Shown one piece after another: positions 11,367 through 15,916 of a stretch of DNA of 64,000 nucleotides. The notes below the pieces were generated by a model. The model saw only the letters and a program-made list of their open reading frames with translations. It had not been told where the DNA came from and searched no databases. Location of the stretch: positions 59,845-123,844 of the forward strand of contig CABXYE010000001.1 of NCBI GenBank assembly GCA_902516425.1, in the 5' to 3' direction. Both the position numbers and the translations under genes were made by a program. Positions within the stretch are counted from its first letter, which is position 1. Every line of letters starts with the position of its first letter. The DNA is from an uncultured Pelagibacteraceae bacterium. Its GTDB lineage: Bacteria; Pseudomonadota; Alphaproteobacteria; Pelagibacterales; Pelagibacteraceae.

Positions 11367-11788
11367 TATTCAGACTTGGTTAACTTATTGTTTAAATCAA
11401 GGGAGTACTCTACTTGATTCATTTTAATAAAAATCCCTTGATTGTATATATCTAAAACCATCAGATCATCTGAAATTGCTGTATCCTCTTCATATCTAAT
11501 AGTTCTACCATCAGGTAAATTAAAAATCGCAAATTTTTTATTCTTTCCAATTATAACTCCACTTAATTTTAAATTCTTTAAAGATATTGATTTATCCGAT
11601 GAAGTAGTTAATCCACTCGAGCTCAAATCATCTCCTGATAAACCACTTGATCCAGTAGCCCCACCTAAAAAAGGATTTACTGCAGGAAGCTCCTCCTCAA
11701 CAAATTCCTCCTTTTCTTCAGTTAAGCCTGGGCTTAAAAAAAGCAAAGACATTAATAGAAAAGTAATTAATTTTTTATTTATATTCAT
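11366..11788 (-). CDS. PilP/GspC-like pilus alignment protein
   Basis: Signal/TM, Pro/Gly/Ser linker, LKLSGVIIGKNKKFAIFNLPDGRTIRYEEDTAISDDLMVLDIYNQGIFIKM (HR-domain-like); between secretin and PilO-like genes. Confidence 0.65.
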   Translation of the reverse strand: MNINKKLITFLLMSLLFLSPGLTEEKEEFVEEELPAVNPFLGGATGSSGLSGDDLSSSGLTTSSDKSISLKNLKLSGVIIGKNKKFAIFNLPDGRTIRYEEDTAISDDLMVLDIYNQGIFIKMNQVEYSLDLNNKLTKSE

Positions 11789-12413
11789 CTGGTAATCCTA
11801 CTATTGAAAGTGTTCCAACTGAATTGATTCCTCCACCTTTTATAACTTTAATTTCTTCTCTGTCAAAATTTATAACCTTATTAGATTTAGCGAGTGCTCT
11901 TCTAAATTTCAAATATCCTAAATAATTTCCAGATATTTCATAAGAAACTGGAATTTTAAAATAAGCAGCTTTTTTTTTATCTTTTCCTGGAGAAACTGGT
12001 TGTGGGTTTTCTTTGTTCAATTTTATTATATTTAAATTATTCAAAGAAGCAAAATTACTTATATTCTGATAAAGACCTTCAACCTCTTTCTGACTATGAA
12101 AAAGTTTACTTTTTTTATCATACTCAGGTTGAATTTTTTTTATTTTTGCTTTCAGCTGTATAATTTCCTGTTTGAGAATGCTAATTTGTTTTTCATTTTG
12201 TATCATCAAATTAATTCTTTCTTTCTGAGCATTTACTTTGGGATTAATAAAAGCGTAATAAATAATTAAAAAAACCAAAATAGATCCAAAATAAATCCCA
12301 AATTTTGTTAGAAGTTTTTTATCTTTAAATAATTCACTGTTTTTTAGTTTTTCAAGTAATTCCTTAACATCAATATTTTTAAGATCTAAATTTTTAAGTT
12401 CATTTAAATTCAT
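11775..12413 (-). CDS. PilO/MshJ-like pilus alignment protein
   Basis: Single TM, coiled coil, ferredoxin-like C-terminus; PilM-N-O-P-Q order. Confidence 0.75.
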   Translation of the reverse strand: MNLNELKNLDLKNIDVKELLEKLKNSELFKDKKLLTKFGIYFGSILVFLIIYYAFINPKVNAQKERINLMIQNEKQISILKQEIIQLKAKIKKIQPEYDKKSKLFHSQKEVEGLYQNISNFASLNNLNIIKLNKENPQPVSPGKDKKKAAYFKIPVSYEISGNYLGYLKFRRALAKSNKVINFDREEIKVIKGGGINSVGTLSIVGLPDEYK

Positions 12414-14509
12414 GTTTTCAATTTACAAAGAATTGTAAATCCTTTCTTATTATTTGCTGATTGTAAATCATCTTGACCAGTAGGTACATTCATTGCTTTC
12501 AAAGAAGCTTGGTCAATAAGGTCTTTGCCATTTAAATTCGATATAAAATTTATAATATCTTGATCAGAGAAAGCTAAGCCGGTTATAATAATTTCACTTG
12601 TTCCATTATAGTTTAAATTAGTGAATTGTACTCTCTGAGGAACACTTCTAGTAATCTGAGCTAAGGCCCTGTAAGAAATTGTTTGATTTGAATTTACCAT
12701 TGATCCAAGTTTTAAAGCTTTTTCCATATCATTTGCTATTTTGCTGGCTTTTTTATGCTCAGCTGTAATAAGATTAAATTCTTGCTGAATATTATTTTCA
12801 TTTACTAACTTATTTTTATTTGAATTGATTTGGAAAAAAGAAAAACCAATTAAAAAAATGTATAAAGCTGCAATACCGCCAACCAAGCCTTTCACCGCAA
12901 AGCCAGAAAGAAATTTCATCTTAGTTTGTCTTTTTAAGGCATCTCTGTTTGGTAAAAGGTTTATATTTTTTACTGCTGTAACAAATTTATAGTAACCGAA
13001 TACATCTAACTTTCTGTAAGCTAAGCCCAAAACTGATGTATAAATTGATCTATTTTTTATGTCAGTTTTTTCTTTATTGTATTCAGGTACTTTTATTTCA
13101 TTCAGTGGATCAAAAACTTGAAGACCTGTATTCAACAAATTTTTTCTGAATAAGGGAATTAATTCTTCAATATTATTTAAATTACTTACAATTTTAATAT
13201 TGTTTATCTTTGATGTATATTTGCTCTCATAATCACTTAAAGCTTGTTTTAACTGCATAGAATAACGTCTTACTACGCTCTCTGTATCGGTATTATTTAT
13301 ATTTGCTGAGTGTTGTGATAAAATTTCTTTTTCGTTAGGTCTCAAAAAAATATCTGTAATAATCGGAATATTATCATGAACTATAATTAAATAATTATCT
13401 TCAGCTCCAATTTCAAGTAAAGCATTATTTGCCTTGTTTTCTATTTTTAAAGTATTATCGAATGCATTCTTTAAAGTAAAACACTTAACATCCATAATTA
13501 CAGGATTTAATCCAGCCTTTTTAACTATTGAGGAATATGAATTAACATCACTAAGTTTTGAAGCTACAAAAAGAATTTCCATCGTATTAGTTTTATTATT
13601 TCTACTTATCACCTGATGAAATATTGAATACTCATTTAAATCATCTGTTAATTGAACTAAATTTTCCCAAAGTGAATCTGTCTCTATTGCTTTTTGAAGC
13701 TCTTCATCAGACATCAAAGGGCTGGTCACAACTCTGATTATAGCACTTGTTACTGGAATAGAAATCGCAACATTAGTGGTAGCTATTTTTGAATTATCCA
13801 TGGCAAGTTTCAATTCATCTGATACGTAATCTTTTGAATTAATTATTCCATCTGCTGTTTTATTTTTATCAAGAAGCCTTAAAGAAATTTTCTCTAATAT
13901 CCAATCTGAATCCTTTTTACTTAGTTGAGCTATTTTAATAGACTCCTCGCTTATATCTACACCTGCTATCTCCTCACCTGCAACATTCGCTTTACTTATC
14001 TTTTCTGAAAATAGTTTTTTAAAGTTTGAAAGACTTTTTTTCTTTTCTACACCCTCTATGTTAGTCCCTTTTTTTTTAAAAGAAAATTTGTCTTTTAAAG
14101 ATGATAAATTTTTTAAAGCTGACAAATCAATATTAAAAAGTTTTTTCTTTTTTTCCTCTTCAACATTAGGAGTAGATGTTTCTATTGTTTCGTCTTTTGT
14201 ATTTTCTTTTATTTCTTGCTCGTTTTCTACGGACTTTGGATTTGAAATATCATTTTCTGAAAAATTATTGATGTTGTTCTCTTTGTTATCCAAATTTTCC
14301 TCTAATTTTCCTGAAATAAGATCATCATACCACTTTTCTAAAATTATTTTTGCTTCTTCAAGGTTAGTTGTACCTGAAGAAATGACTTTTTGCTTCCCAT
14401 TATGAAAAGTTCTCCCTACCCAATTTTCAGATTTCAACTTTCCCTTGTATTTATCTTGTCTTACATAAATATGCAATCTTCCATCTTTAGTTGAAATAAT
14501 ATTTGTCAT
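12410..14509 (-). CDS. PilM-PilN fusion (GspL-like topology) with N-terminal integrase/AP2-like domain
   Basis: Residues ~8-62 DGRLHIYVRQDKYKGKLKSENWVGRTFHNGKQKVISSGTTNLEEAKIILEKWYDDL; acidic/Lys linker; PilM core EEIAGVDISEESIKIAQLSKKDSDW; C-terminal TM plus PilN-like periplasmic domain. Confidence 0.8.
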   Translation of the reverse strand: MTNIISTKDGRLHIYVRQDKYKGKLKSENWVGRTFHNGKQKVISSGTTNLEEAKIILEKWYDDLISGKLEENLDNKENNINNFSENDISNPKSVENEQEIKENTKDETIETSTPNVEEEKKKKLFNIDLSALKNLSSLKDKFSFKKKGTNIEGVEKKKSLSNFKKLFSEKISKANVAGEEIAGVDISEESIKIAQLSKKDSDWILEKISLRLLDKNKTADGIINSKDYVSDELKLAMDNSKIATTNVAISIPVTSAIIRVVTSPLMSDEELQKAIETDSLWENLVQLTDDLNEYSIFHQVISRNNKTNTMEILFVASKLSDVNSYSSIVKKAGLNPVIMDVKCFTLKNAFDNTLKIENKANNALLEIGAEDNYLIIVHDNIPIITDIFLRPNEKEILSQHSANINNTDTESVVRRYSMQLKQALSDYESKYTSKINNIKIVSNLNNIEELIPLFRKNLLNTGLQVFDPLNEIKVPEYNKEKTDIKNRSIYTSVLGLAYRKLDVFGYYKFVTAVKNINLLPNRDALKRQTKMKFLSGFAVKGLVGGIAALYIFLIGFSFFQINSNKNKLVNENNIQQEFNLITAEHKKASKIANDMEKALKLGSMVNSNQTISYRALAQITRSVPQRVQFTNLNYNGTSEIIITGLAFSDQDIINFISNLNGKDLIDQASLKAMNVPTGQDDLQSANNKKGFTILCKLKT

Positions 14510-14527
14510 ATTCGAATCAGTTTTATT

Positions 14528-14848
14528 TTAGTGTTATAATACAATTGTAACACAAATTTGTCAATTGTTTTGTGTTACAATTCATAATCTAAAATTAATC
14601 GCTTTTTACGCTATTTTTATTTTGTGTTAGAAAAAATTATTCTATTTTTGCGATAAATCATCAAATTTTATTTTGTGTTAGATTCAATTTATTTGTGTTA
14701 CACTATTTACATTTATCATATTTATTTGTTAAAAATATTTTTTTACTAAAAAAGTCAATAAAATCAACATTTTTTTATTGTTGATTATAAATTGTATTTA
14801 TAGTATAAATTTTGTGTTAGAGTACTTAAAATTTTATTCTAACACAAA
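14528..14848. promoter_or_regulatory. Divergent pilMN/pilT intergenic region with multiple TTTGTGTTA motifs
   Basis: Exact copies: 14548-14556(-), 14569-14577(+), 14621-14629(+), 14672-14680(+), 14692-14700(+), 14811-14819(+), 14840-14848(-); degenerate copy near 14528-14539. Confidence 0.85.
14543..14582. repeat. Inverted repeat, 14 bp arms, 12 bp spacer
   Basis: AATTGTAACACAAA (14543-14556) / TTTGTGTTACAATT (14569-14582), perfect. Confidence 0.95.
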
Positions 14849-14850
14849 AT
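14809..14850. repeat. Inverted repeat, 13 bp arms, 16 bp spacer
   Basis: ATTTTGTGTTAGA (14809-14821) / TCTAACACAAAAT (14838-14850), perfect. Confidence 0.95.
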
Positions 14851-14905: not shown

Positions 14906-15916
14906 ATGATCGACAAAATTGTTAACATTGTAAAAGAAAACCCAAAAGTTTCAGATTTCCATTTAAGAGCAAATTGCCCTTTTTCTTACAGATTAATGGG
15001 TGAAATAAATATCTTAGAGGGAGAAATTGTTAAAAATGAGGAAATTGAGGAGTTATTAAATAAATACTGCTCAAAATCTGATGTTGAGCTATTTAATTCA
15101 AAAAATGAGTTAGATAGTGGATTTATGTTAGAAAAGATGAGGTTTAGAGCAAATTTCTATAAAACCCTTAAAGGTCCTGCTGTAGTTCTTAGAAAAGTAG
15201 AAACAGCAATAATAAATATGGACACTCTTAACTTGCCCCCTGTAATGTATAGTGTAGTTGACATGCATAAGGGGCTTGTATTGGTAACGGGACCAACAGG
15301 ATCTGGTAAGTCAACTACATTAGCTTCAATAATTAATCAGATTAATGAGACCAGACAAGCAAACATAATTACAATTGAAGATCCTGTTGAATTTATTCAT
15401 ACAGATAAAAAAAGTATTATTTCGCATAGAGAAGTAGGAAAGCAAACAGAAAGTTTTTCGACAGCACTAAAAAGTGCGTTAAGAGAAGACCCAGATGTAA
15501 TTTTAGTTGGTGAGCTTAGAGATATAGAAACTATTAGCATGGCCTTAACAGCAGCAGAGACAGGACACTTAGTTTTTGGAACATTGCACACCAGTGGTGC
15601 ACCAAATACAATAAATAGAATAATTGATGTTTTTCCATCAGAACAGCAAGCACAAATTCAAGCTCAGCTTGCTGATAGTTTGCAAATGGTAATTACACAA
15701 AAATTATTTAAAACAACAGATGGTAAAGGGAGAGTCGGAGCATTTGAAATAATGGTTTGTAACTCACCAGTAAAAAATTTAATTAGAGAGAAAAAAATTC
15801 ATCAAATCCCAAGTGTGATGCAAACCGGAACACGGGATGGTATGATCTCTATGGAAAAATCAATTGAAAATTTAATTCAATCAGGAAAAATAAGTAGTAT
15901 AGATGCTAAATCGTAA
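14906..15916 (+). CDS. pilT: Twitching-motility/retraction ATPase PilT/PilU family
   Basis: VTGPTGSGKSTTLASIINQIN, IEDPVEFIH, LREDPDVILVGELRD, TAAETGHLVFGTLHTSGA. Confidence 0.95.
   Translation: MIDKIVNIVKENPKVSDFHLRANCPFSYRLMGEINILEGEIVKNEEIEELLNKYCSKSDVELFNSKNELDSGFMLEKMRFRANFYKTLKGPAVVLRKVETAIINMDTLNLPPVMYSVVDMHKGLVLVTGPTGSGKSTTLASIINQINETRQANIITIEDPVEFIHTDKKSIISHREVGKQTESFSTALKSALREDPDVILVGELRDIETISMALTAAETGHLVFGTLHTSGAPNTINRIIDVFPSEQQAQIQAQLADSLQMVITQKLFKTTDGKGRVGAFEIMVCNSPVKNLIREKKIHQIPSVMQTGTRDGMISMEKSIENLIQSGKISSIDAKS

Follow-up and report, generated by a model that had tools for sequence, protein, structure and literature searches.

Many SAR11 ocean bacteria encode a structural pilus-machine protein that, judged by its sequence, carries the DNA-binding domain of a mobile-element integrase. 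We propose that this protein, a fusion of PilM and PilN (PilMN), binds an array of short sites at its own promoter and autoregulates the pilus operons, most likely by repression. This is a proposal that we consider probable, and it is made without binding or expression data. What computation does establish is the fusion, its integrase homology, the motif, the co-occurrence of domain and array, the specificity for a single locus, and the conservation, phasing and promoter overlap of the sites. The analysis began from a window (the whole stretch of DNA examined, 64 kb) of SAR11 (Pelagibacterales) origin, whose nearest named relatives are Pelagibacterales single-cell genomes. An initial annotation of the same DNA had raised the idea of a pilus component able to bind its own promoter; its observation is confirmed here and the core of its interpretation is supported.

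PilMN resembles the PilM and PilN proteins of type IV pili in its PilM_2 and PilN domains, in its gene order (pilMN-O-P-Q-B-C) and in its PDB relatives. Residues 183-380 match PilM_2 (E 4e-24) and residues 616-696 match PilN (E 4e-9), both above the Pfam cut-off, and the fusion described initially therefore holds. The NCBIfam pilM model matched at E 7e-29, under its family cut-off, and a PDB profile search returned PilM at E 9e-19 (relatives 3jc8, 5eox and 5eou). Open reading frames, Pfam matches and gene order together place the gene at the head of a pilMNOPQ arrangement (Table 1). Unlike known PilM and PilN, PilMN holds both in one chain and has an extra N-terminal DNA-binding domain and a disordered linker. 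In the full-length model the N-terminal domain stands apart and is followed by a disordered stretch (residues 71-178), the PilM core, a membrane helix (residues 542-569) and the PilN part; the long linker that had been read between the domain and the PilM core is thus borne out, and it differs between relatives in both sequence and length. The Phage_integrase catalytic domain (R..R..Y) had no Pfam match in PilMN and is present in the two integrases discussed below.

Table 1. Features of the pilMN/pilT region (window coordinates) and of the related SAR11 element (coordinates on loci L063 and L064).
Feature	Position	Strand	Basis or remark
pilO	11775..12413	-	Pfam PilO; then pilP, pilQ, pilB, pilC and pilin genes, same direction
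pilMN fusion gene	12410..14509	-	699 aa ORF; predicted integrase-type DNA-binding domain at N-terminus
Predicted transmembrane helix, PilN part, about residues 542-569	12803..12886	-	Helix in model; PilN homology
PilM cytoplasmic core, about residues 180-500	13010..13972	-	Pfam; PDB PilM 3jc8, 5eox
Disordered linker, about residues 70-178	13976..14302	-	pLDDT < 50 at 71-178
N-terminal domain, residues 1-66, strand-strand-strand-helix	14312..14509	-	AF2 pLDDT 87; integrase N-terminus homology; purifying selection
Degenerate eighth site TTAGTGTTA, one mismatch	14528..14536	+	Touches pilMN -10 box; alignment
Predicted pilMN promoter TTGACA-17-TATTAT	14536..14564	-	11 of 12 consensus; conserved in window-lineage relatives
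Site 1 TTTGTGTTA	14548..14556	-	Within -35/-10 spacer of predicted pilMN promoter
Site 2 TTTGTGTTA	14569..14577	+	Motif scan, alignment
Site 3 TTTGTGTTA	14621..14629	+	Motif scan, alignment
Site 4 TTTGTGTTA	14672..14680	+	Motif scan, alignment
Site 5 TTTGTGTTA	14692..14700	+	Motif scan, alignment
Predicted pilT promoter TTGATT-17-TATAAA	14781..14809	+	Read from sequence and alignment
Site 6 TTTGTGTTA(GAG)	14811..14819	+	Immediately 3' of pilT -10 box, at expected transcription start
Site 7 TTTGTGTTA	14840..14848	-	Inverted partner of site 6, close to pilT transcript start
pilT-like ATPase gene, divergent	14906..15916	+	Pfam T2SSE E 2e-48; heads minor-pilin/pilY1 operon
SAR11 element, tyrosine integrase and serine resolvase at tRNA-Leu(caa)	L063 1111-3377; L064 982-3229		

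The N-terminal domain is kept in 60 distinct relatives, where a block of about 60 residues is conserved far above the linkers that flank it. Third codon positions in the domain are far more variable than first and second positions, and dN/dS is about 0.03-0.14 in the four pairs with estimable dS; judged by these codon patterns, the N-terminal segment is real coding sequence under strong purifying selection. AlphaFold2 predicts four strands, three of them long, and a helix (pLDDT 87). In some relatives an acidic linker of as many as about 150 residues precedes the domain, and in one of them (genome G026; L116 3228-5771) about 60 residues within this preceding linker are tandemly duplicated.

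Across 397 genomes of the order, nearly all matches to a profile of the domain were PilMN fusions, and the remaining two were proteins of 423-425 aa (L063 and L064). Both are tyrosine integrases (PF00589, E 1e-7), and their domain is 57-63% identical to those of PilMN. A class-wide search returned four matches outside the order, in four alphaproteobacterial families; singly they are weak (E 4e-4 to 6e-3 per genome), but every one of the four maps to the N-terminus of a tyrosine integrase, so that position and protein type agree throughout. On the strength of the L063/L064 proteins and the four class-wide matches, we assign the PilMN domain, by homology, to the integrase N-terminal (arm-type) DNA-binding domains. 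Beyond PilMN the profile found nothing convincing except tyrosine integrases and small phage membrane proteins. Further weak matches within the order, near E 0.01, were dismissed, as those inspected (L065, L066 and L068) overlie unrelated genes, encoding a CoA-transferase-like or TRAP-binding protein and a histidine kinase.

It should be said that the decisive link to integrases comes from sequence comparison and not from structure searches. Foldseek gave no significant match for the domain in the PDB, no solved integrase being matched, and only weak matches in BFVD, integrases and intron endonucleases among them; a PDB sequence search with the domain profile gave no credible match. The segment had initially been taken for an Arm/AP2-like module of three strands and a helix. 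The integrase part of that description stands through the profile matches and the fold is confidently predicted, but the fold found no significant counterpart in the PDB, and no Pfam family, AP2 (PF00847) included, matched residues 1-69 at E <= 1.

The window contains exactly seven copies of TTTGTGTTA, all of them within 14548-14848, the divergent pilMN/pilT intergenic region, as the initial annotation had counted. Whole-window shuffles averaged 1.59 copies with a maximum of 4, and none of 100 reached seven. The distance of 34 nt that had been given between gene and motif region needs correction, as the exact motif closest to the gene (14548) lies 38 nt upstream of the ATG and it is the one-mismatch eighth site that is nearer still. 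DNA-uptake sequences are spread genome-wide in high copy number, and given that DNA uptake is a function of type IV pili and that the region is rich in AT, the array might be such a sequence or a chance low-complexity repeat. Pattern searches of the 884-kb genome rule out the former, finding only 17 TTTGTGTTA, fewer than the 24 copies of a reversed control pattern; seven of the 17 are those in the array and the other ten are scattered. Nearly all copies of the motif lie at one place, phased and conserved, and we give either version of this explanation practically no credence.

Across relatives the motif reads TTGTGTTAGAG and is asymmetric (354 sites in 49 domain-bearing loci); its first eight bases were the search seed, so that the GAG extension alone is independent. 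Neighbouring sites on the same strand, at gaps of up to 60 bp, are separated by 11, 13, 19-23, 30-32 or 51-54 bp, and the best-fitting period is 10.25-10.5 bp, a fit equalled by none of 20,000 random sets. Site spacing follows the DNA helical repeat, and most sites are on the same face of the double helix. When the window is aligned with eight relatives, 57 of 63 site columns (90%) are invariant, compared with 74 of 333 other intergenic columns (22%). Several short direct or inverted sites, spaced by about one or two turns, are also what is seen at the arm-type sites of integrases.

In the window lineage the sites overlap both predicted core promoters, and the degenerate eighth site is perfect in several relatives, where it lies over the pilMN -10 box. 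The promoters are consensus predictions. That of pilT was not listed by the consensus scan, whose rule requires T at position 6, and its TTG and TATAA are conserved in 9/9 aligned loci. With sites occupying the -35/-10 spacer at pilMN and the expected start point at pilT, repression is the most likely outcome, and we infer with moderate confidence that binding represses both operons. The domain could conceivably activate, if it recruited RNA polymerase or displaced a silencer, for instance. Many sites are indeed located upstream of the promoters or between them, and those of genus g1 are farther from recognisable promoter boxes: in this large group they lie near the start codon, and a simple pattern search found no sigma-70 consensus beside them. 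Spacer and start-point sites are nevertheless typical repressor positions, and the pilMN boxes are already too near consensus (Table 1) to make activation anything but improbable.

The array follows the domain from locus to locus. Three to nine sites lie upstream of pilMN in all 27 domain-bearing loci whose available upstream sequence extends to 300 bp or more, and two or more sites in none of 44 domain-less loci, so that the co-occurrence of domain and repeats, which the initial annotation had asked to see checked, is complete among these loci. Many of these loci are close relatives and the counts are therefore not independent. A tree built on the PilM-PilN core requires at least three changes of domain state, and at every one of them the array changes with the domain. 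Among domain-bearing relatives L009 is without domain and array alike, and L152 (genome G359), nested in the domain-less clade, carries the domain together with three or more sites within a stretch of just 192 bp. As the L152 core groups within that clade, its promoter array was probably exchanged jointly with the 5' end of the gene. In the complete genomes G026 and G040 array and domain are present although pilT is not the neighbour, whereas in domain-less G035, G043 and G093 pilMN and pilT still diverge from each other but no array accompanies them; it is thus the domain, and not the neighbouring operon, that the array goes with. All 49 exact TTGTGTTAGAG counted in ten domain-bearing genomes are located at the pilMN promoter, and ten other genomes have 0-2 each. 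As matching sites are almost confined to the pilMN control region, the machine probably regulates its own genes directly. The co-occurrence is weakened as proof of function by the fact that the domain adjoins the array, so that a single recombination event might carry both along; the conservation data speak for the two being kept together despite the ease of such transfer.

One genome, G377, carries two pilMN genes (L166 and L167), one with the domain and an array, the other domain-less and with three in-frame stop codons. This pairing suggests that one pilus locus has been replaced by the other.

The SAR11 integrases bear on specificity from another side. Repeats of TTGTGTAAGAG, which differs from TTGTGTTAGAG by one base and is the usual form at SAR11 integrases, lie on both sides of the L063/L064 integrase gene, twice as 11-bp tandem copies, and resemble arm-type sites. 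The 0.5 kb of non-coding flanks per integrase contain five TTGTGTTAGAG matches with up to two mismatches, where 0.2-0.3 are expected; none of 400 shuffles reached this count, and permuted patterns did so at most once in 400. In the L063 flanks the most repeated 9-mers are the motif, while in L064 tRNA-derived repeats come first. As L063 and L064 are related loci, they amount to roughly one independent observation, and as such, in the absence of binding data, the motif at integrases lends the domain's DNA specificity independent support. Genome G148 carries the small SAR11 element of Table 1 together with a PilMN-domain gene and its array. PilMN binding has not been demonstrated and adjacent domain and array can travel together, which leaves room for an array that serves an unrelated, separately encoded regulator, with the domain binding RNA or protein and linked to the array by position alone. 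Such a regulator would have to account for a one-base variant of the motif flanking integrases that share only this domain with PilMN, for domain-less genomes that lack the array as well, and for a motif without other targets in the genome, and we find it very unlikely. That the domain physically binds the array is strongly inferred, though it remains to be shown.

The domain is also found in marine viral contigs (L071-L075; e.g. L074 7992-8342, + strand), which encode a protein of about 116 aa with a domain 66-73% identical, followed by a C-terminal hydrophobic helix resembling a membrane anchor. This protein is possibly a phage decoy or interfering version, a hint that phages may interfere with the PilMN switch. 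No TTGTGTTAGAG array was found in the L071-L075 stretches read. Phage and plasmid record collections gave no match to the integrase, the phage protein or the domain, and none of 51 viral-contig stretches with paired motifs encodes the domain.

Based on this analysis we can present a proposal for how PilMN would act. As a structural part of the pilus inner-membrane platform, it would have captured the arm-type DNA-binding domain of a tyrosine integrase, and a flexible cytoplasmic tether of about 108 residues would let this domain reach the helically phased TTGTGTTAGAG array. The bound array would cover the pilMN promoter and the divergent pilT promoter, and the pilus genes would thereby be autoregulated. 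Several PilMN copies in an assembled machine might bind jointly, with assembly read out by avidity; it is only weakly inferred that the cell detects assembled machines through multivalent binding by a PilM ring. In a more specific version, which we offer tentatively and regard as less likely than not, the assembled ring presents many integrase-derived DNA-binding domains and captures the 7-9 site array by avidity, and the pil promoters are drawn to the membrane and silenced as soon as the machine is complete. Such capture would possibly limit the number of machines per cell.

The same features could be read as those of a tether rather than an operator, one that attaches the machine to the nucleoid, or else the pil locus to the membrane, and fixes the position or number of machines, in the way of a centromere-like site bound by an actin-fold protein. 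There is one array per genome, its 7-9 phased sites suit multivalent capture by a machine for which solved models have 12 PilM chains each (24 chains in two PDB entries), and the fold of PilM is FtsA/actin-like. The comparison with ParM/parC-type partition systems extends to layout alone, an array beside an actin-fold gene. Against this, the array always lies at the pilMN promoter and, in the window lineage, overlaps predicted core promoter elements, neither of which a pure tether needs, and we judge that reading unlikely. The proposed autoregulation by PilMN is directly testable, as the DNA target is short, defined and confined to a single locus.

How the expression of pilus machine genes is matched to the number of machines is poorly understood, and in this case the regulator appears to be a machine part that acts without an intervening signalling chain. 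SAR11 bacteria are the most abundant marine heterotrophs and have few regulators; PilMN would show clearly, in these bacteria, that an integrase domain from a mobile element can be reused as a regulator. In the open-access literature we found no case, PilM included, in which a component of a pilus or secretion machine has a DNA-binding domain, in line with the initial annotation, which knew of no precedent, and no paper on SAR11 pilus regulation.

The closest known systems each share part of the proposed arrangement. PutA, ToxR and CadC, trigger enzymes or membrane-linked autoregulators, combine a membrane job with binding to their own promoter in one protein. PilMN differs from them in that its other job is that of a structural part in a multi-subunit pilus machine, its domain is apparently integrase-derived and its operator would be an array of 7-9 sites. 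A direct autoregulator is thus of a known kind, and it is the carrier and the origin of the PilMN domain that are unusual. With the arm-type domains of tyrosine integrases of the Tn916 and lambda Int type PilMN shares sequence homology and the strand-strand-strand-helix fold; unlike those integrases it lacks the recombinase catalytic domain and is joined to a membrane machine, and its associated sites lie in a promoter, whereas theirs lie at the attachment site. ALOG domains are likewise a tyrosine-recombinase DNA-binding domain reused as a regulator, in plants, but they are of core type rather than arm type, eukaryotic and not fused to a machine (PMC3537659). The known route from pilus state to transcription is PilS-PilR, which feeds back on pilA in Pseudomonas and, as proposed for PilMN, makes the transcription of pilus genes depend on the state of the pilus system in the inner membrane; PilS-PilR does so through a sensor kinase and a separate response regulator with sigma-54, whereas PilMN would need no intermediary (PMC6058289).
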